IMG/VR virus record: IMGVR_UViG_3300046787_000130
Span: 97,238 to 161,237 of that record
Source: a virus
Length of the DNA stretch: 64,000 nt
Reading direction: 5' to 3' (one strand)
Shown: one piece after another, positions 1,584 through 56,456 of the stretch
Position numbering within the stretch: position 1 is the first letter of the stretch
Layout: every line of letters begins with the position of its first letter
Made by a program: the position numbers and the translations under genes
The notes under the pieces: generated by a model
Seen by the model: the letters and a program-made list of their open reading frames with translations, nothing else
Told to the model about the DNA's origin: nothing
Databases searched by the model: none

Positions 1584-2102
1584 ATGTACATTGAGATTTA
1601 TAGAATGAACGCAGATGTCAGACTGCCTAAGTGGGGTACTGACTACGCAAACTGTTTTGATATTGAGTATTGCCCGGTAAATGATATTGTTCACGGCTAC
1701 AATGACTCTAATATTACGGTAGAGCGTTGGATTGAAAAGGATACGCATGACGTTGTCATCTATCCAGGTGAACGTCTTCTCATTCCCACAGGGTTAATCT
1801 TCAAGTTTCCAGACACTGTTGAGCATACTTATTCTTTGCGTCTCCATTCACGGTCTGGTCTTGCGTTGAAGCGCGGATTGGTTCTTGCTAATGGTACTGG
1901 AATTGTAGATGTAGACTACCGTATGCAGGTGTTTGCATTGATTGCTAACGTATCCTCAGTTGCGCAAACTATTGCCAAGCATGAACGTATCTGTCAGGGT
2001 GAGATTGTTCGTAATGAGCAATTCAAATTTGTGGAAACGGCAGATAAGCCTGACTTGTTAGGCAATCGCGCTGGCGGTTTTGGTTCAACTGGAACAAAGT
2101 GA
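1584..2102 (+). CDS. dut: dUTP pyrophosphatase (trimeric dUTPase family)
   Basis: Hydrolyses dUTP to dUMP and PPi, lowering uracil incorporation and feeding dTMP synthesis by the window's ThyX. Conserved motifs are visible: LRLHSRSGLA (motif 2), NGTGIVDVDYR (motif 3) and the glycine-rich C-terminal RAGGFGSTG (motif 5) that closes over the substrate. The 172-aa length is slightly long for the family because of an insertion near residues 25-50. A GGAG lies 7 nt before the ATG, inside the end of regA. Confidence 0.93.
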   Translation: MYIEIYRMNADVRLPKWGTDYANCFDIEYCPVNDIVHGYNDSNITVERWIEKDTHDVVIYPGERLLIPTGLIFKFPDTVEHTYSLRLHSRSGLALKRGLVLANGTGIVDVDYRMQVFALIANVSSVAQTIAKHERICQGEIVRNEQFKFVETADKPDLLGNRAGGFGSTGTK

Positions 2103-2530
2103 TGTTAGATGTGTTTGGTGATGCAGTGGTTGAGAATCCGTTTCTTAACTACCTGACATATGAAAACCACCTGCGTAACCTAGTGTTGAATAGACACGCT
2201 GGAGTTTTTATGCAGTACTGCGTAGGAACAAAACCAGGTGGCACCAAACATATCATTGATGTTGTTTCAGTTGATTCTAAGATTCTTGTTTCTGCAAAGT
2301 TGCAAAATATTGCGGGTACTGCGGAAGAGAAGATTCCATATGAGCAGTTAATGCTTCAGCATGCTTGTGATACCTACGGGTACAACAAAGCCTACATCGT
2401 ATGCGCTGGAACTGGTTGGCGTCTGCTCAACTACTTCACCTCAGAAGAATACAAGAATCTCATCAAGACTCCAAAAGTTGAACTGCTAAAGTACGAAGAT
2501 TTTGCTAGAATTATTGATGAAGTTGGCTAA
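2102..2530 (+). CDS. Putative PD-(D/E)XK nuclease-like protein
   Basis: A 142-residue protein resembling small phage proteins of the restriction-endonuclease-like fold. Residues about 52-80 read IDVVSVDSKILVSAKLQ followed by GTAEEKIPYEQ, matching a D-x(n)-(S/E)xK core followed by a conserved glutamate. ATG 2102 overlaps the dUTPase TGA. Role unknown; recombination, repair or host-DNA degradation are possible. The fold assignment is motif-based inference. Confidence 0.6.
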   Translation: MLDVFGDAVVENPFLNYLTYENHLRNLVLNRHAGVFMQYCVGTKPGGTKHIIDVVSVDSKILVSAKLQNIAGTAEEKIPYEQLMLQHACDTYGYNKAYIVCAGTGWRLLNYFTSEEYKNLIKTPKVELLKYEDFARIIDEVG

Positions 2531-2533
2531 ATA
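2526..2533 (+). promoter_or_regulatory. Possible T4-type late promoter (GCTAAATA)
   Basis: Resembles the T4 late consensus TATAAATA and the CTAAATA form seen in marine T4-like phages. It overlaps the stop codon of the nuclease-like gene and lies 67 nt before the Hsp20 start, with a hairpin in between. TAA stop codons make such octamers easy to find by chance, so this one is weak. Confidence 0.3.
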
Positions 2534-2538
2534 AGAAA

Positions 2539-2567
2539 CTGGATGCCCAATCGGGGTCCAGGTTTTT
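2539..2567 (+). terminator. Rho-independent terminator-like hairpin before hsp20
   Basis: CTGGA(2539-2543) pairs with TCCAG(2557-2561), CCC/GGG pairs extend the stem around an AATC loop, and TTTTT follows at 2563-2567. It sits between the nuclease-like gene and Hsp20, so it may end the replication operon or attenuate read-through into hsp20. Confidence 0.6.
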
Positions 2568-2592
2568 AACTTGCTTTTAAAGGAGTACAATC

Positions 2593-3018
2593 ATGACCAA
2601 TAGTCTATTTGACCGTTATCTACCATCTGCTCTTGGATTTGACCGCGTGTTTGATGTTCTTGACCACGCCTCTGATGTTGTCAATTCAAGCAATCTAGCC
2701 TTTCCTCCAGTAAATATTGTAAAGATTGACGACACTAACTATGCCGTTGAACTTGCTATTGCTGGTTACACAGAAGAAGAAGTCAACGTAGAAACCGAAA
2801 AGAATCTACTGAAGATTTCTGGAAAGAAATTGGAAAAAGATGAACGCAATTATGTCCTTAGAGGAATTGCAGGACGTTCATTCTATCGCCAGTTTATTCT
2901 GACTGATACGATGGTAGTGCGAGATGCGGCTCTCAAGAATGGCGTTCTTACAGTTTCTCTTGAGAATGTTATTCCAGAAGCCCAGAAGCCAAGAAAGATT
3001 GCTGTTCTAGCAACCTAG
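2593..3018 (+). CDS. Small heat-shock protein, Hsp20/IbpA family
   Basis: ATP-independent holdase chaperone. The 141-aa product has an alpha-crystallin domain: VNIVKIDDTNYAVELAIAGY at residues about 40-59, KNLLKISGKK in the middle, and LKNGVLTVSLENVIPE at the end, followed by a short basic C-terminal tail. AAAGGAG lies 8 nt before the ATG. Hsp20 genes are common in cyanophage and related T4-like genomes. It is bounded by hairpins at 2539-2567 and 3045-3079, so it is probably an independent unit. Confidence 0.93.
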   Translation: MTNSLFDRYLPSALGFDRVFDVLDHASDVVNSSNLAFPPVNIVKIDDTNYAVELAIAGYTEEEVNVETEKNLLKISGKKLEKDERNYVLRGIAGRSFYRQFILTDTMVVRDAALKNGVLTVSLENVIPEAQKPRKIAVLAT

Positions 3019-10764: not shown

Positions 10765-11344
10765 GGTTGCTGTAGTTTTTGGGGCAAGTGGCGGGATTGG
10801 AAACGCCACTTGCCTAGCATTGTCTGCTGAATATAAAGTCATTGCTATAACAAGAGAAGAAATTGACTTATTTGACAATCTAAGTTATAATCAGATATGC
10901 GCTTTCCTTACTGCTATGCAACCAGACTTAGTTGTCAACTGCGCAGGACATTTTGCGGACAATACTGAAACGCATAATGCTACGATGGACATCAATGTTG
11001 GCTCTAACTGGAGCATCATTAAACACTACATTGACAATCCATCATCCAAACCTGTTAAAGTTATCCTTGTTGGTTCAAGCGCATATCGTGAGGGCAGAAA
11101 GAACTACATGCTATATGCCGCAAGCAAAGCAGCACTATATAATTTGTGGCTAAGTTCTGCCGAATACTTTCAGAGTAGCAATGTTGCGGTTTCACTAATT
11201 AATCCAGTGAAGACCAAAACTAAGATGATGGACCCAGCATCAACTAGATTCATACTTCCGGAAGATGTAGCGCAAAAAATATTAGCAATGTCATCAACAG
11301 CATTAAGTGAGTGTATTGATTTAGAATACCCGAAGGAGTCGTAA
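10757..11344 (+). CDS. Short-chain dehydrogenase/reductase
   Basis: A 195-aa NAD(P)-dependent oxidoreductase of the SDR superfamily. Nucleotide-binding GASGGIGNA lies at residues 8-16, NCAG at about 62, catalytic Ser in LVGSSAYRE, and the Tyr-Lys pair in YAASKAA. ATG 10757 overlaps the cupin stop. It is shorter than typical SDRs (about 250 aa). Probably reduces a keto-sugar intermediate of the glycan pathway. Confidence 0.82.
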   Translation: MTKVAVVFGASGGIGNATCLALSAEYKVIAITREEIDLFDNLSYNQICAFLTAMQPDLVVNCAGHFADNTETHNATMDINVGSNWSIIKHYIDNPSSKPVKVILVGSSAYREGRKNYMLYAASKAALYNLWLSSAEYFQSSNVAVSLINPVKTKTKMMDPASTRFILPEDVAQKILAMSSTALSECIDLEYPKES

Positions 11345-12121
11345 ATGAAAGTTGGCGTTATTGGAAAAGGCGTAGTTGGTACTGCCGTGTATGAGGGGCT
11401 AAAGCATCTTGGTCATACAGTAAGTTTCTTTGATAAGAAGTATGATGGTTCCAAGGTAGAGGACATCCTAGACACCGATTGCGTTTTCGTATCAGTGCCT
11501 ACAAATCAAGCATCTAACGGCGATTGCGATACCAGCATTGTTGAATCTGTTGTAGCCGAATTAAATGATAGAAACTACAAGGGATTGATTGCTATTAAAA
11601 GCACCGTAATCCCCGGCACATCTGACAAGTTAGCATCCGCATATCCAAATCTGCGAATCTGCTCAGTACCTGAATTCCTCCGCGCTAAGACAGCACTAGC
11701 AGATTTTATGTACAATCATGACCTGCTTATTATTGGTAGCCATAATGATGCGGACTTTGATATAATTAAGAAGATTCATGGGCATCTACCAAAAGCAACA
11801 TCTTGCGTTAAGCCTGTTGAAGCAGAGATTGTAAAGTATTTTAACAACGTTAATCACAGTGTACAAATTATCTTTGCTAACATCTTCTATGATGTATGTA
11901 AAAAGGTTGGTGCTGATTACAATAATGTTTATGATGCTATCATCAAGAGAGAGTGCTTCAACTCATCATACCTAATGTGTAATGAAAACCTCAGAGGATT
12001 TGGCGGACACTGTTTGCCAAAGGATACTAGTGCTTGGGGCAACCTTGTTAAGAATCTTGGACTAGAGTATGCGACAATCCAAGCAGTTCTTTCAGACAAT
12101 GAGAAGATTAACAATGAGTAA
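11345..12121 (+). CDS. Compact UDP-glucose/GDP-mannose dehydrogenase-like protein
   Basis: A 258-aa protein with an N-terminal Rossmann motif GVIGKGVVGTAV, a central domain including AIKSTVIPGT and VPEFLRAKTALADF, and the catalytic cysteine motif GFGGHCLPKDT near the C-terminus. The family is usually 390-450 aa, and the C-terminal UDP-binding domain is absent. The catalytic Cys and Lys are kept, so it may be a minimal enzyme that has changed substrate handling. It begins directly after the SDR stop. Confidence 0.78.
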   Translation: MKVGVIGKGVVGTAVYEGLKHLGHTVSFFDKKYDGSKVEDILDTDCVFVSVPTNQASNGDCDTSIVESVVAELNDRNYKGLIAIKSTVIPGTSDKLASAYPNLRICSVPEFLRAKTALADFMYNHDLLIIGSHNDADFDIIKKIHGHLPKATSCVKPVEAEIVKYFNNVNHSVQIIFANIFYDVCKKVGADYNNVYDAIIKRECFNSSYLMCNENLRGFGGHCLPKDTSAWGNLVKNLGLEYATIQAVLSDNEKINNE

Positions 12122-52451: not shown

Positions 52452-52480
52452 TTTACTTTTCACGCGAACTAGGGTATCAT
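52452..52480 (+). promoter_or_regulatory. Promoter of the ribozyme/tRNA operon
   Basis: TTTACT (52452-52457), 17-nt spacer, TATCAT (52475-52480). GAACTAGGGTAT in the spacer/-10 matches GAATAGGGTAT at the primase promoter. Transcription should begin near 52487. Confidence 0.65.
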
Positions 52481-52500
52481 TCTTATCTAACGTGAAAAAA

Positions 52501-52520
52501 GGGATATATATAGATATCCC
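52501..52520 (+). other. 5' hairpin of the tRNA transcript
   Basis: GGGATAT (52501-52507) pairs with ATATCCC (52514-52520), 6-nt loop; flanking CGTG/CACG may extend it. No T-run, so probably a stabilising 5' structure or processing element rather than a terminator. Confidence 0.5.
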
Positions 52521-52656
52521 ACCACGAGTCCAAGTTGGCTTGTGTATGCTCTTTACAAAACAGATTCTCAAAGGGTGTCCCACTACCCGCCCCACCTACT
52601 AAAAACACTTGGGGCTGGATTGCGCATGCGGTCGGCTGAACATTCGTTTGGCTTAA

Positions 52657-52757
52657 ATGTGGATATATCTCTGATGAGCCAGTGAGACTCTGGCGAAACA
52701 TATGGCTGTTGATGTATTTTTGTTATGCTCCAGCCAGTGTAAGATAACAGCAAACAT
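52657..52757 (+). ncRNA. Type I hammerhead ribozyme
   Basis: All catalytic-core elements are present. CTGATGA is at 52671-52677. Stem II GCCAG(52678-52682)/CTGGC(52690-52694) encloses loop TGAGACT. GAAA is at 52695-52698. Stem III runs from 52699 to 52739: CAT/GTG base pairs, one bulged A, then TGGCTG(52703-52708)/CAGCCA(52731-52736). The cleavage triplet is GTA (52739-52741), with A52698-T52740 as the conserved closing pair. Stem I is TATCT(52666-52670)/AGATA(52742-52746), then an internal loop and ATGT(52657-52660)/ACAT(52754-52757). Predicted cut after A52741. Its outer stem I is open, so it is type I. It lies between the operon promoter and tRNA-Asn. Confidence 0.88.
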
Positions 52758-52840
52758 GACCTTGCGGTGTAATTTTGCTGATGCCTATAGGCAAGAGGAT
52801 GAATGATACATTGCTGATTGCCCAGTGCACTGCGCTTTCA

Positions 52841-52908
52841 GGTATCAAACGTAAACCGCATTGCGCGAGGACAGGCGCACTATAAATGTAGACCGCAGTT
52901 CTGATACT
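52841..52908 (+). ncRNA. tRNA-like folded element upstream of tRNA-Asn
   Basis: GGTATCA (52841-52847) pairs with TGATACT (52902-52908) as a 7-bp closing stem. Inside are TGCGC(52862-52866)/GCGCA(52875-52879), with an 8-nt loop, and a weak CTA/TAG hairpin. It resembles a reduced tRNA without a D-arm, but has no CCA, no standard T-loop and no readable 7-nt anticodon loop. A degenerate tRNA or a processing structure. Confidence 0.4.
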
Positions 52909-52930
52909 ACAGAAAAAATCGGCATGATTT

Positions 52931-53005
52931 TGGCGCGTAGCACAATGGCAGTGCAAATGACTGTTAATCATTAGGTTGCTGGTTCGAATCCAGCCGTGCC
53001 AGCCA
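52931..53005 (+). tRNA. tRNA-Asn (GUU)
   Basis: Full cloverleaf: acceptor TGGCGCG/CGTGCCA, anticodon loop CTGTTAA (GTT), T-arm GCTGG/CCAGC with TTCGAAT loop, discriminator G and encoded CCA (53003-53005). Confidence 0.93.
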
Positions 53006-53048
53006 GTTGATGATTAGACATAGACTGAGTGCGCTAGCAATGTCCAAT

Positions 53049-53074
53049 TTGGGTGCGAAGCCCAATACTTTTTT
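53049..53074 (+). terminator. Intrinsic terminator-like hairpin after tRNA-Asn
   Basis: TTGGG (53049-53053) pairs with CCCAA (53061-53065), 7-nt loop, followed by TAC and six T residues (53069-53074). Moderately stable. Confidence 0.55.
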
Positions 53075-53149
53075 CGCAACAGCAAGACAGGGGTCGCGCC
53101 CAGTGCCTAGTGTCAAGTGCTTGTCGGTTGACATGTTGCGTTTTTATTT
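53075..53149 (+). terminator. Large terminator-like structure before tRNA-Leu
   Basis: CGCAACA (53075-53081) pairs perfectly with TGTTGCG (53134-53140), enclosing further pairings such as TGTCAA/TTGACA, and is followed by TTTTTATTT. It could be a terminator or a structured RNA with its own role. Confidence 0.5.
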
Positions 53150-53233
53150 GCGCGAGTGGTGTAATGGCAGCCACGACGGTCTTAGAAGCCGTTGCCGAAA
53201 GGCGTGAGAGTTCGAGTCTCTCCTTGCGCACCA
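53150..53233 (+). tRNA. tRNA-Leu (UAG)
   Basis: Acceptor GCGCGAG/CTTGCGC, anticodon loop CTTAGAA (TAG), long variable arm GCC-GAAA-GGC, T-arm GAGAG/CTCTC, A73 and encoded CCA. Confidence 0.93.
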
Positions 53234-53264
53234 ATTTTGTTTCTCTAGTTTAGAGGTGTTTGTT

Positions 53265-53579
53265 ATGGGCTGCAACCCGTTTCTCAGAGGGTCAGATTTT
53301 ATTCCGCCATCGATATTGATGCGAAATTCCGTTAACCCAGACCCTTCTTCTTTTAAAGTAAAAAAGGTTTACACAGCCAATGAACTATTTGTCTCATTGG
53401 TAAATTACCCCAACTGTACAACATTTGAGGGCAATAAGATATTAGTTACGAATTACGATGTTAGAGAAAAAATCAAACTTGACCCACATTTTCATAATGG
53501 CAGTGGTCTAATAGCAAGATTTGAACCTACAGATACAGGCTGGGAAGCCGCTGTATGGTTCGTCACTAATGCCACATAA
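53265..53579 (+). CDS. Unknown protein within the tRNA cluster
   Basis: A 104-residue protein. ATG 53265 has TAGAGGTG upstream and is preferred to the TTG-like start at 53256. Sequence: GCNPFLRGSDFIPPS, VYTANELFVSLVNYPNCTTF, TDTGWEAAVWFVTNAT. No family recognised. Flanked by tRNA-Leu and tRNA-Glu, so expressed from the tRNA transcript. Confidence 0.6.
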   Translation: MGCNPFLRGSDFIPPSILMRNSVNPDPSSFKVKKVYTANELFVSLVNYPNCTTFEGNKILVTNYDVREKIKLDPHFHNGSGLIARFEPTDTGWEAAVWFVTNAT

Positions 53580-53586
53580 GTTTAAT

Positions 53587-53661
53587 GGTCCCATCGTCTA
53601 GCGGTCAGGACATCACCCTTTCACGGTGATGACACGGGTTCGATTCCCGTTGGGACTACCA
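53587..53661 (+). tRNA. tRNA-Glu (UUC)
   Basis: Acceptor GGTCCCA/TGGGACT (G1-U72 wobble), anticodon loop CTTTCAC (TTC), T-arm CGGG/CCCG with TTCGATT, encoded CCA at 53659-53661. Confidence 0.92.
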
Positions 53662-53668
53662 ATTTTAT

Positions 53669-53756
53669 GGAGAGTTGCCAGAGAGGCTAATTGGCGCTGT
53701 TTGCTAAACAGATGGACGTAATCGTCACACAGGTTCAAATCCTGTACTCTCCGCCA
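53669..53756 (+). tRNA. tRNA-Ser (GCU)
   Basis: Acceptor GGAGAGT/ACTCTCC, anticodon loop TTGCTAA (GCT), long variable arm, T-arm ACAGG/CCTGT, discriminator G73 as usual for Ser, encoded CCA. Confidence 0.93.
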
Positions 53757-53763
53757 AGTTTAC

Positions 53764-53840
53764 GGGATAGTGGCACAGTTGGTTAGCGCAGACGCTTGAT
53801 AAGCGTCAGGTCGAAGGTTCAAGTCCTTCCTATCCCACCA
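53764..53840 (+). tRNA. tRNA-Ile (GAU)
   Basis: Acceptor GGGATAG/CTATCCC, anticodon stem GACGC/GCGTC with loop TTGATAA (GAT), T-arm GAAGG/CCTTC, A73, encoded CCA. Confidence 0.93.
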
Positions 53841-53855
53841 ACTATATAAAGTATT

Positions 53856-53930
53856 GGGCTGTTAGTGATAATGGGAGCACGTCGCGTTTGCATCGCGAAG
53901 GTGAGAGTTCGATTCTCTCACGGTCCACCA
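53856..53930 (+). tRNA. tRNA-Ala (UGC)
   Basis: Acceptor GGGCTGT/ACGGTCC contains the G3-U70 wobble that identifies tRNA-Ala; anticodon loop TTTGCAT (TGC); T-arm GAGAG/CTCTC; encoded CCA at 53928-53930. Confidence 0.93.
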
Positions 53931-53935
53931 AATTT

Positions 53936-54040
53936 GATTGTTTGTAAGCCACAGGCACGCAACGCCTGAGTAACTGCGCCAAAAGAAAACTTCAGTTCTA
54001 GACTCCTGAAGGTGAGACGCAGCAAATAGTGCAAACAATC
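53936..54040 (+). ncRNA. Structured RNA, three-way junction, between tRNA-Ala and tRNA-Tyr
   Basis: A 105-nt element closed by a perfect 9-bp stem GATTGTTTG(53936-53944)/CAAACAATC(54032-54040). Inside: CAGGC(53952-53956)/GCCTG(53964-53968) with a 7-nt loop, and CTGCG(53974-53978)/CGCAG(54018-54022) continuing to CTTCAG(53990-53995)/CTGAAG(54006-54011). Not a tRNA, and no known family was recognised. It may correspond to stable non-tRNA RNAs like those in the T4 tRNA cluster. Confidence 0.65.
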
Positions 54041-54270
54041 AACCTAACGTGCCATCTAGTCAATGGCTAGTCTACCCAGACGATGAGAAGCGGTGTGATA
54101 ACCGTAGGGTGGTTCCAGTCTAACCGAACTGGCGTTGGCAACACGACAGTCCTGTATGGGTCGAGGAGTGGATGGAAGGTAAGAGCGTGGTGTTAGTCGA
54201 GCGGGTGAAAACCAATGCATGGAATACACCTAGTGATACTATAGTTACCACCGCATACAGGAAGCAATTT
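54041..54270 (+). ncRNA. Second structured RNA region between tRNA-Ala and tRNA-Tyr
   Basis: About 230 nt without a plausible gene. Long-range pairing GCGGTG...TAAC (54090-54102) with GTTA...CACCGC (54244-54254) encloses local hairpins: CCAGT/ACTGG (about 54115-54132), CGAC/GTCG and GGTGT/ACACC. Group I intron and RNase P signatures were not seen. Function unknown. Confidence 0.5.
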
Positions 54271-54355
54271 GGGTGAACGCCGAAGTTGGAGAGTCGGGGC
54301 AGACTGTAAATCTGTTGTTTAGGCTGAGTAGGTTCGAATCCTACTTCACCCACCA
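54271..54355 (+). tRNA. tRNA-Tyr (GUA)
   Basis: Acceptor GGGTGAA/TTCACCC, anticodon loop CTGTAAA (GTA), long variable arm, T-arm GTAGG/CCTAC with TTCGAAT, A73, encoded CCA. Confidence 0.93.
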
Positions 54356-54361
54356 TATTAT

Positions 54362-54435
54362 GGGAGTGAAACATTAAAGTGATGTAACGGACTTTTAATC
54401 CGTAAAAGAGGGAGCATTACCCTCCACTCCTACCA
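54362..54435 (+). tRNA. Atypical tRNA-Lys (UUU)
   Basis: Acceptor GGGAGTG/CACTCCT (G1-U72 wobble), anticodon stem ACGGA/TCCGT with loop CTTTTAA (TTT), T-stem GAGGG/CCCTC, encoded CCA. Unusual: the T-loop is AGCATTA instead of TTCRANY, the D-loop TAAAGTG lacks the paired GG, and position 8 is A. The usual D-loop/T-loop contacts would be missing. Confidence 0.75.
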
Positions 54436-54445
54436 CCTTAAAATA

Positions 54446-54534
54446 GGGACTAAAGCCGTATTGGTCGCAGGCAGCGAACTCATAATTCGTCCTCTTAAAG
54501 AGCATTCTCGGTTCGAACCCGAGTGGTCCCACCA
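54446..54534 (+). tRNA. Class II (long variable arm) tRNA with CAU anticodon
   Basis: Acceptor GGGACTA/TGGTCCC, D-stem GCC/GGC, anticodon stem GCGAA/TTCGT with loop CTCATAA (CAT), a 16-nt variable arm CTCT-TAA-AGAG, T-arm CTC GG/CCGAG with TTCGAAC, A73, CCA. CAU tRNAs (Met, Ile2) normally have short variable arms; this body with A73 looks Leu-like. Confidence 0.8.
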
Positions 54535-54549
54535 ACTATATAAAAGTAT

Positions 54550-54626
54550 CGGGCATTAGCACAGACTGGTAGTGCGTCTGCTTTGGGAGCAGAAGGTCAC
54601 AGGTTCAAATCCTGTATGCCCGACCA
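54550..54626 (+). tRNA. tRNA-Pro (UGG)
   Basis: Acceptor CGGGCAT/ATGCCCG, anticodon loop TTTGGGA (TGG), T-arm ACAGG/CCTGT, A73, encoded CCA. Confidence 0.93.
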
Positions 54627-54635
54627 ATTTACAAT

Positions 54636-54719
54636 GCGAGTGTGATGGAATGGTATACATAGCAGACTTAAAATCTGCCGCTTTCGGGCTTGCGGGTTCG
54701 AATCCCGCCACTCGTACCA
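54636..54719 (+). tRNA. tRNA-Leu (UAA)
   Basis: Acceptor GCGAGTG/CACTCGT, anticodon stem CAGA/TCTG with loop CTTAAAA (TAA), long variable arm, T-arm GCGGG/CCCGC, A73, encoded CCA. Confidence 0.93.
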
Positions 54720-54725
54720 TATTGA

Positions 54726-54799
54726 GCAGAGTTGGCATATTGGTTGTGTCCCAGTCTTCCAAACTGGCTAAACGGGTTCGATTCCCGTACTCTGCTCCA
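54726..54799 (+). tRNA. tRNA-Gly (UCC)
   Basis: Acceptor GCAGAGT/ACTCTGC, anticodon stem CCAGT/ACTGG with loop CTTCCAA region (TCC), T73 typical of Gly, encoded CCA. Confidence 0.92.
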
Positions 54800-54805
54800 A
54801 GTTTA

Positions 54806-54882
54806 GACTCCGTAGTTCAGTTGGATAGAACAACAACCTTCTAAGTTGTGGGTCACAGGTTCGAATCCTGTCGGGGTCGCCA
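54806..54882 (+). tRNA. tRNA-Arg (UCU)
   Basis: Acceptor GACTCCG/CGGGGTC, anticodon loop CTTCTAA (TCT), T-arm ACAGG/CCTGT, G73, encoded CCA. Confidence 0.93.
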
Positions 54883-54896
54883 ATACAGGAAATAGC

Positions 54897-55319
54897 ATGG
54901 ACATCACTAAAGAAGATATGATGAAGCGTCATGCTATTGCTTACCCTATGGAAGTAGGTGCGCCAAAGTTTGACCTAGTTCCTGTTGAGAAAGAAAAAGA
55001 CCAGATGATAAACATTGCTAGGCTAAGTGCTCAGCAAGAGTATGACAGGATTATGGAAGTTGTTGCTGTGTTGCAGAAGCAAGCAGATGGAATTAAAAGA
55101 CGCCTAGATATAACTGATATGGTCTACAACGCCAAGTATAATTTTAAGATTATTCCCGGCAAGACTTATTATTTGATTTTTCAAAAAAGAAAGAGTATAA
55201 TGATACTGTCTCCAATGGGACCAAATGATTGGTCTAGTGGACCACCAGTAGATTACGAATACAAAGCCAAGGTAGTTTGCTTAGGTGACTACTCTTGGAT
55301 GGAAGATACACGCTCTTGA
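54897..55319 (+). CDS. DUF2452-like conserved protein
   Basis: A 140-residue protein, ATG 54897 with CAGGAAA upstream. ARLSAQQEYDRIMEVVAVLQ, KQADGIKRRLDITDMVYNAK, PGKTYYLIFQK and LSPMGPNDWSSGPPVDYEY match my recollection of the DUF2452 family. Its last eight bases overlap the 5' acceptor strand of tRNA-Thr. Function unknown. Confidence 0.75.
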   Translation: MDITKEDMMKRHAIAYPMEVGAPKFDLVPVEKEKDQMINIARLSAQQEYDRIMEVVAVLQKQADGIKRRLDITDMVYNAKYNFKIIPGKTYYLIFQKRKSIMILSPMGPNDWSSGPPVDYEYKAKVVCLGDYSWMEDTRS

Positions 55320-55387
55320 AGCATTGCTGGCGATGCGCGGGATTTGTAACCCCGAGATAGACTGTTCGATTCAGTCCGAGAGCACCA
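55312..55387 (+). tRNA. tRNA-Thr (UGU)
   Basis: Acceptor GCTCTTG/CGAGAGC, anticodon loop TTTGTAA (TGT) with an A31-C39 mismatch, T-arm GACTG/CAGTC, encoded CCA. The acceptor contains the TGA stop of the preceding protein gene. Confidence 0.88.
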
Positions 55388-55469
55388 ATCGCGACGGTTC
55401 TACCATCGTTAATCGGTAGCGCAGTCTTGGCTGCGAGAAAAGTCCCTTGACGACGACCAAGATTTATTT
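55388..55469 (+). other. Structured spacer, possible degenerate tRNA
   Basis: Contains CTACC/GGTAG (about 55400-55418) and CGCAG/CTGCG (about 55420-55435) hairpins and ends GACGACGACCA, like a tRNA 3' end. No complementary acceptor strand, no T-arm and a 6-nt loop where an anticodon would be. Best read as a decayed tRNA or unrelated structured RNA. Confidence 0.4.
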
Positions 55470-55544
55470 GTTGCTGTGGTTGAGTGGTTAGACAGCTGAC
55501 TGCAAATCAGTTTCACGCAGGTTCAAATCCTGTCAGCAACTCCA
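55470..55544 (+). tRNA. tRNA-Cys (GCA)
   Basis: Acceptor GTTGCTG/CAGCAAC, anticodon loop CTGCAAA (GCA), T-arm GCAGG/CCTGT, U73 as expected for Cys, encoded CCA. Confidence 0.93.
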
Positions 55545-55560
55545 CCTATATAGAATGTAT

Positions 55561-55634
55561 GCCTCGTTAGTTAAATGGTATAACTCCGCTTTTACACGGC
55601 GGTTTCGGCAGTTCGATTCTGTCACGAGGTACCA
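55561..55634 (+). tRNA. tRNA-Val (UAC)
   Basis: Acceptor GCCTCGT/ACGAGGT (G1-U72), anticodon loop TTTACAC (TAC), T-arm GGCAG/CTGTC, A73, encoded CCA. Confidence 0.92.
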
Positions 55635-55640
55635 AACAGT

Positions 55641-55715
55641 TGCAGGATAGTTCAGCAGCAGAACACCGGACTCATAATCCGGGGGTCACGGGTGCGAGTC
55701 CCGTTCCTGCTACCA
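55641..55715 (+). tRNA. tRNA with CAU anticodon, initiator-like mismatch at 1-72
   Basis: Acceptor TGCAGGA/TCCTGCT with a U1-U72 mismatch, D-stem GTTC/GAAC with a GG-less loop, anticodon stem CCGGA/TCCGG with loop CTCATAA (CAT), T-arm ACGGG/CCCGT with TGCGAGT loop, A73, CCA. The open 1-72 position resembles initiator tRNA; the anticodon stem is not the standard GGG/CCC. Confidence 0.8.
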
Positions 55716-55719
55716 CTTT

Positions 55720-55793
55720 GCGGGTATGATGTAATGGTTGCCTGTGACCTTGCCAAGGTTATCGTGCGAGTTCGATTCTCGCTACCCGCTCCA
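55720..55793 (+). tRNA. tRNA-Gly (GCC)
   Basis: Acceptor GCGGGTA/TACCCGC, anticodon loop TTGCCAA (GCC), T-arm GCGAG/CTCGC, U73, encoded CCA. Confidence 0.93.
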
Positions 55794-55829
55794 TTTTGAG
55801 AATCTGTTTTCCTATTTAAGGATGAATAT

Positions 55830-56252
55830 ATGAAACGTTTGCTTGCTACACTAGCCTTAATCCCATCTCTTGCTCTTGCTGAAGAGCCCAGCAAGTGGAC
55901 AACATTTACAAAGATGCCTGATGGCACGGTTTGGGAGTTCAAGAACAACTCTCTAAATGTAATTACTAACGACAGCAAGCAGATGTTTTGGATTGTTCAG
56001 TTTAGAACACACCAAGCGGGCAAGACGGTCTTTAATTTTGTAAAGGTTGCTGTTCCAGTAACTGCATGTAAGGTTCAGTCTGGTCAACTTGTTCTTGTTG
56101 GTATGGACAACGTTGAAAAAGCAAAGATTGACTTTGTATTTGACGGTGGCACTCTTGCGTCAAACATTGCGCAATCCGTCTGCCGTGCTGGCGACAAGGT
56201 ACTACAAAAGTATGCTGAAGAAGCAGAGAAGCCTGCTGAAGTAAGTACTTGA
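55830..56252 (+). CDS. Exported periplasmic protein of unknown function
   Basis: A 140-residue protein with a signal peptide (KRLLATLALIPSLALA, cleavage expected before EEPS). The mature part is beta-rich (WTTFTKMPDGTVWEFKNNSL, KTVFNFVKVAVPVTAC, KAKIDFVFDGGTLAS) with two cysteines. AAGGATG precedes ATG 55830. Embedded in the tRNA cluster; a role in the envelope during infection is inferred. Confidence 0.65.
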   Translation: MKRLLATLALIPSLALAEEPSKWTTFTKMPDGTVWEFKNNSLNVITNDSKQMFWIVQFRTHQAGKTVFNFVKVAVPVTACKVQSGQLVLVGMDNVEKAKIDFVFDGGTLASNIAQSVCRAGDKVLQKYAEEAEKPAEVST

Positions 56253-56277
56253 CTCTTCAAGCAAACAGATATATAAT
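56249..56277 (+). promoter_or_regulatory. Consensus sigma70 promoter before tRNA-Gln
   Basis: TTGACT (56249-56254), 17-nt spacer, TATAAT (56272-56277). Transcription should begin near 56284, just before tRNA-Gln at 56288. It would drive two tRNAs and the peroxiredoxin gene. Confidence 0.8.
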
Positions 56278-56287
56278 TATCGTATAT

Positions 56288-56361
56288 TGAGGGGTCGTCT
56301 AACGGCAGGACGACGGACTTTGAATCCGTCTATCTAGGTTCAAATCCTAGCCCCTCAGCCA
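56288..56361 (+). tRNA. tRNA-Gln (UUG)
   Basis: Acceptor TGAGGGG/CCCCTCA with U1-A72, anticodon loop CTTTGAA (TTG), T-arm CTAGG/CCTAG, G73, encoded CCA; all fit Gln identity. Confidence 0.93.
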
Positions 56362-56366
56362 TTTAA

Positions 56367-56456
56367 GGATGTGTGCCAGAGCCTGGTTTAATGGAACGGT
56401 CTTGAAAACCGTCGATGGGAAACCATCCGTAGGTTCGAATCCTACCACATCCGCCA
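56367..56456 (+). tRNA. tRNA-Ser (UGA)
   Basis: Acceptor GGATGTG/CACATCC, anticodon stem ACGGT/ACCGT with loop CTTGAAA (TGA), long variable arm GATGG-GAAA-CCATC, T-arm GTAGG/CCTAC, G73, encoded CCA. Confidence 0.93.

Follow-up and report, generated by a model that had tools for sequence, protein, structure and literature searches.

The window analysed in this study is the final 64 kb of a 161,237-bp IMG/VR virus record. Judged by its encoded proteins, the source phage is large and T4-like: it carries a prohead protease (PF03420); its peroxiredoxin is closest, among annotated relatives, to those of phage C48C1 (Kyanoviridae) and of T4-like cyanophages; and distant homologues of a 345-aa protein occur in Caulobacter phage Cr30 and in Sinorhizobium phages. 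ARAGORN detected an array of 19 tRNA genes (52931-56456), located entirely on the + strand. One extra tRNA at 54362-54432 (+), between tRNA-Tyr and tRNA-Met, was found by cmscan at 43.5 bits and had no ARAGORN call. The tRNAs were the sole matches to Rfam models at gathering thresholds. At 2537-2598 (+), the ROSE_3 RNA thermometer model matched just under its threshold (42.6 vs 43 bits), and the match ended at the start codon (2593) of a 141-aa ORF that resembles Hsp20 by eye; this ORF is possibly a phage heat-shock gene controlled by an RNA thermometer.

Ahead of the tRNA array, a hammerhead ribozyme sits in a structured non-coding RNA of about 445 nt, which extends from a weak promoter-like site to tRNA-Asn (Table 1). 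The original prediction had placed the ribozyme between a promoter and a phage tRNA array. Its position ahead of the 19 tRNAs holds, whereas the promoter claim is weak, its 9/12 match being at chance level (2 promoter-like sites found vs 1.5 expected in shuffles). The sole close relative of the locus is contig 3300032330_000578 (L001), which has the same order of upstream genes, leader, hammerhead and tRNA-Asn/tRNA-Leu. Two more distant contigs from metagenome 3300003375 (L211 and L212) contain a re-paired hammerhead with the same loop type.

Table 1. Features of the hammerhead locus (window coordinates).
Feature	Position	Strand	Basis or remark
Weak sigma-70-like promoter match, TTTACT-17-TATCAT, 9/12	52452-52480	+	identical in L001
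Structured 5' leader upstream of ribozyme	52487-52665	+	L001 comparison, folding
Leader hairpin GGGTG..TACCC	52573-52588	+	pair G52573-C52588 becomes A-U in L001
Type I hammerhead ribozyme, stem I to stem I	52666-52746	+	sequence, fold, descriptor, covariance model
Stem I, 5 A/U-rich pairs, TATCT/AGATA	52666-52670/52742-52746	+	
Core CTGATGA (C3 U4 G5 A6 U7 G8 A9)	52671-52677	+	
Stem II, 5 bp, GCCAG (52678-52682)/CTGGC (52690-52694), loop TGAGACT	52678-52694	+	
GAAA (GAA 52695-52697, A15.1 = 52698) and stem III	52695-52740	+	
Stem III inner part, 4 bp, ACAT/GTGT, followed by bulge A52702	52698-52701/52737-52740	+	
Stem III outer part, 6 bp, TGGCTG/CAGCCA, 22-nt loop	52703-52708/52731-52736	+	
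Predicted cleavage site GUA^A	52741-52742	+	inferred from hammerhead consensus
189-nt structured RNA, cut site to tRNA-Asn	52742-52930	+	starts with the ACAGCRARC..GACCTTGYGGTGTA element common to L211/L212
tRNA-Asn(GUU), first in array	52931-53005	+	ARAGORN/cmscan
Remaining array, 18 further ARAGORN tRNAs with small ORFs in between	53150-56456	+	

The element contains what a type I hammerhead requires, namely the CUGANGA...GAA core, the A15.1-U16.1 pair (U52740) and an H at position 17 (A52741). The predicted succession of CTGATGA, GAAA and the GTA cut site, as well as the perfect 5-bp stem II, could be read directly from the sequence. Stem III has the single bulge claimed for it, but its pairs number ten and not nine. 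The 5 bp of stem I were likewise present, whereas the distal pairing ATGT/ACAT proposed beyond them is broken by a T-to-C change in L001 and is thus unsupported. Position 52675, suggested as a G to be mutated, is a T (core position 7, which is free); the invariant Gs are G5 at 52673 and G8 at 52676. The minimum-energy fold of the isolated 101 nt (52657-52757), calculated with RNAfold, was the hammerhead three-way junction with stem I open. The folding energy of this stretch was ordinary for its composition, indicating that energy alone would have missed the hammerhead. The internal loop GGATA/ACAGCAA lies opposite the loop TGAGACT and is compatible with a putative stem I/loop II tertiary contact.

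The core together with stem II is expected 0.093 times per window in first-order Markov sequence, and, given the core, stems I and III of this quality arose in 3e-5 of random flanks in a simulation. The chance expectation for an equally good site is thus approximately 3e-6 per window (0.093 x 3e-5). A strict type I descriptor gave a single match in the 128 kb of strand represented by both strands of the window. A covariance model, R1, was built from 25 other phage hammerheads, with the window and its close relatives left out and with 13 of the 38 rows of alignment A3, which was misaligned at the 3' end, excluded beforehand. The R1 alignment was 99.2% paired, compared with 24-32% when slid. Covariation was strong, with both sides altered in 60 cells compared with 14 in shuffles; because the cut sites had been picked by pairing, this covariation is partly circular for stem I but not for stem II. 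The window site scored 31.4 bits with R1 (E 5.8e-7); neither the window nor the whole 161-kb record gave the model a second match. The alignment of this match covered the core, stem II and a nearby GU and left out the true stem I strand, because loop III is longer here than in most training members.

The Rfam hammerhead models behaved differently from R1. RF00008 (Hammerhead_3, type III) matched the core and stem II locally with 24.5 bits, where its cut-off is 48.5, and imposed a stem III-open topology that is unable to form stem I. RF00163 (Hammerhead_1) gave no match to the element. As a control, 15 loci with approximately 40 descriptor-perfect phage type I hammerheads were searched at gathering thresholds and yielded zero Rfam matches, indicating that the silence of Rfam on the window is uninformative. 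The original prediction had named failure of type I covariance models as grounds for rejecting the element. Such failure does occur with Rfam, but it is not a valid test, since the controls fail too. The gathering cut-off was accordingly taken to reflect the library and not to define the ribozyme.

A motif scan of IMG/VR returned, after classification, at least 154 type I and at least 36 type III candidates. With a narrower pattern for the window geometry (5-bp stem II, TGARANT loop, three stem II pairs left free), 113 distinct matches were obtained, and stem II was fully paired in 111 of them (approximately 2.6% each by chance). The 25 hammerheads of R1 were drawn from these matches. The same narrow-subfamily pattern had no match in a scan of genome contigs. 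More than 100 further phage hammerheads have loops of the TGAGACT type. Type I hammerheads abound in phage contigs, often with several per contig, and the window ribozyme itself is of this ordinary kind. Current Rfam thresholds miss the sampled phage type I members, so that their abundance is under-reported.

Compensatory changes in related phages, proposed originally as a check, were found in stem III of L001 and in stems I and II of L211/L212. In the L001 hammerhead, C52706-G52733 is replaced by U-G in stem III and the core is unchanged. Comparison of the window with L001 over 52480-52930 showed 124 pairs, of which none was broken, two were fully compensated and five had one-sided changes (one in stem III). 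The compensated pairs belong to the leader hairpin at 52573-52588 and to a hairpin of the 189-nt segment at 52823-52832, where C52823-G52832 becomes U-A. Both hairpins were also predicted from the window alone, so the L001 comparison is an independent check, albeit of two sequences only. Relative to the window, L211/L212 have an A-U to G-C change in stem I and C-G to U-A and A-U to C-G changes in stem II. The type I hammerhead in the window is genuine, being backed by its core, the chance estimate, an independent covariance model, compensatory changes and synteny; its self-cutting activity is almost certain, as predicted from these features.

Similarity to L211/L212 continues directly past the hammerhead, where these contigs read ACAGCGAGCGACCTTGTGGTGTA..CTATAGG and the window ACAGCAAACATGACCTTGCGGTGTA..CTATAGG; 2 of 500 shuffles were as good. 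When the whole of IMG/VR was scanned for GACCTTGNGGTGTA near TATAGG, every non-coding match directly followed such a hammerhead, and the other matches were two coding ones. L321 and L322, considered as carriers of this downstream element, were rejected as chance matches inside coding sequence. L212 encodes tRNA-Ala, tRNA-Thr and tRNA-Met on the same strand, 1 kb beyond the hammerhead and the GACCTTGYGGTGTA element. Among annotated phages, no homologue of the leader was found apart from tRNA parts; MD18 and DSS3_MAL1 shared with L212 a 25-nt match that overlaps an annotated CDS. Most peroxiredoxin-bearing relatives are without any hammerhead, implying that the element is gained and lost and is dispensable. 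One of these relatives, L026, has a different hammerhead, 5 kb from its tRNA-Asn.

When the leader was folded as a whole, the picture differed from that of the isolated element. Positions 52561-52571 of the leader can pair with 52683-52692, a segment of loop II and stem II, and the pair probabilities in the thermodynamic fold were 0.01 for stem I, 0.24 for stem II and approximately 0.55 for stem III. The hammerhead is thus a minority structure in this fold, and it may need to fold during transcription to be active, or its activity may be regulated; folding-dependent control of the ribozyme by the leader is possible. At 52881, a late-promoter-like TATAAATG, also present in L001, might allow the tRNAs to be transcribed independently of the ribozyme; such strings occur at chance frequency in the window. 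The non-coding segment of the window matched no Rfam family. GOLLD and ROOL were rejected as identities of the leader, as neither RF02032 nor RF03087 matched the record at E <= 10 (the ROOL search was run without a positive control).

Taken together, these features suggest that the leader hammerhead probably separates the tRNA-array transcript from upstream RNA by cotranscriptional cleavage. The ribozyme would lie within the structured leader of a transcript that includes the array and would cleave after A52741 during transcription. Hammerhead chemistry yields 5'-OH and 2',3'-cyclic phosphate ends. The upstream product would be released with a 2',3'-cyclic phosphate; transcription from the weak promoter would make it a leader of approximately 255 nt, and read-through would make it RNA from the upstream genes. 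The downstream product, assuming co-transcription, would start with a 5'-OH and run from the conserved 189-nt structured RNA through tRNA-Asn into the array; host RNases would then mature the array tRNAs. The predicted cut is 189 nt upstream of tRNA-Asn, so the hammerhead cannot directly make a tRNA 5' end. The likely benefit would be a tRNA precursor uncoupled from upstream mRNA and provided with a defined 5'-OH end.

We considered whether this is a generic phage hammerhead without a tRNA-specific role, which would provide a 5'-OH end or separate downstream transcripts, its placement being incidental. The richness of phage contigs in type I hammerheads is consistent with such a role; many precede protein genes, and in approximately half of them fewer than 60 nt separate the hammerhead from the following ORF. 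Nearness to tRNAs was also no greater than under random placement in the same loci (10 vs 8.8 expected, lineages collapsed), although placing hammerheads at random within loci so rich in tRNAs has little power to reveal a specific role. Against an incidental placement, the order of hammerhead, downstream element and tRNA is kept in L001 and seen again in L212. This explanation is possible, but we consider it rather unlikely. We claim the recurrence of hammerheads in tRNA and stable-RNA settings and not a general enrichment.

The ribozyme might instead define the end of a stand-alone structured RNA (the 189-nt segment or the leader), with the tRNA array as a mere neighbour, as for GOLLD and ROOL. 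Conserved, structured flanks lie on both sides of the ribozyme, and what is common to the window and L211/L212 is the downstream element and not a tRNA. Hammerheads of other contigs point in the same direction. L302 contains a GOLLD RNA at 1677-2099 (-), scored at 190.9 bits, in a phage tRNA array, and its type I hammerhead at 2504-2597 (-) is located 411 nt upstream of the GOLLD conserved domain. Hundreds of non-coding nucleotides also separate the hammerhead from the next tRNA in L188/L207, where approximately 390 nt of non-coding RNA precede an intron-bearing tRNA-Met, and in L229 and L230, where a long non-coding stretch is followed by tRNAs. The L259 and L227 hammerheads speak against it: the type I hammerhead at L259:2716-2805 (-) has its predicted cut 6 nt before tRNA-Leu(CAA), and for that at L227:2222-2316 (-), which lies inside an array, 7 nt separate the predicted cut from a tRNA-like gene scored at 30.9 bits by cmscan. 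The lack of a matching Rfam family for the window segment, including GOLLD and ROOL in the record, and the fact that the 3' segments of the window and L211/L212 have only approximately 45 nt in common also argue against a stand-alone RNA, which we regard as doubtful. An inactive sequence, either a decayed hammerhead or a chance resemblance to one, is very improbable: the low-scoring Rfam type III match in the wrong topology, the absence of a type I match, a stem I of only five A/U-rich pairs and the competing leader pairing would fit it, but the chance estimate, the R1 E-value, the intact core with pairing-preserving changes in both relatives and the equal failure of Rfam on clean phage hammerheads speak against it.

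Several of these contigs have further features. The tRNA-Met(CAU) downstream of the hammerhead in L188, at 11300-11585 (+), has a 210-nt intron according to ARAGORN. On the minus strand of L229 (1770-2600), approximately 800 nt of non-coding RNA past the hammerhead contain three repeats GGACTGCCCATGGTCCTCC..GGAACAAAAAAGCTACAGAGGCAT, followed by a tRNA apparently carrying an insert; the stretch is possibly an undescribed repeated structured RNA. In the L251 group, a hammerhead lies beside a permuted tmRNA, and a functional linkage of the two was rejected because they are separated by a promoter-like TTGACA..TATACT, which places the hammerhead at the start of the next transcript.

Cleavage that separates the array transcript from upstream RNA thus remains our preferred reading, and the order of hammerhead, structured RNA and tRNAs recurs in other phage contigs, in agreement with the original placement of the hammerhead at the head of a tRNA array. 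A role as tRNA-operon processor would be plausible but not stronger than that, because the cut is 189 nt away, the downstream segment is itself a conserved structured RNA and hammerheads as a group lie no nearer to tRNAs than random placement in the same loci would put them. We tentatively propose, as a broader and rather uncertain reading, that large phages may set the 5'-OH ends of stable RNAs (tRNAs, GOLLD and unnamed tRNA-island RNAs) by type I hammerheads, the window element being one member. The layout proposed for this family would be hammerhead, GACCTTGYGGTGTA element, structured RNA and tRNAs.

Prophage transcripts that contain several hammerheads are cleaved both in vitro and in E. 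coli (Perreault et al. 2011, PMC3088659). The window element resembles those hammerheads in its core, its three stems with stem I open and its GUH cut, and in being intergenic in a dsDNA phage and sense to neighbouring genes. In contrast, the cases in PMC3088659 flank protein genes or adjoin prophage integrase genes, whereas the window hammerhead is located in a structured leader before a tRNA array; in the text of that paper, "tRNA" occurs once, within a reference title. Theta (HDV-like) ribozymes lie beside phage tRNAs, and a part in tRNA maturation has been suggested for them (Kienbeck et al. 2024, PMC10879173). They share with the window element the setting of a small self-cleaving ribozyme, with cleavage predicted here, in phage tRNA surroundings. 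They belong to another class, however, and are cut adjacent to tRNAs, with 3' processing discussed, whereas the window cut is 189 nt upstream; PMC10879173 does not mention hammerheads. The window fold is a three-way hammerhead junction and not an HDV-like nested double pseudoknot, and no HDV-family Rfam model matched. GOLLD and ROOL (RF02032 and RF03087) are large structured phage RNAs of tRNA islands (PMC12286853). The tRNA-island setting is similar, and the hammerhead contig L302 has GOLLD downstream, but neither family matches the window record and the non-coding leader of the window is shorter.

According to PMC6155905, what hammerheads do in prokaryotes is an open question. No account of hammerheads in phage tRNA arrays, or together with GOLLD, turned up in the open-access literature that we searched. 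Phage and prophage hammerheads flanking genes and theta ribozymes beside phage tRNAs are known; the stable-RNA setting of hammerheads appears new, and their recurring placement ahead of tRNA and other stable-RNA genes in unrelated phages appears to be undescribed so far. A hammerhead heading a phage tRNA array offers a concrete function for such ribozymes, the shaping of stable phage RNAs without host RNases, and the relatives in which the cut is 6-7 nt from a tRNA or upstream of GOLLD make this proposed function testable.
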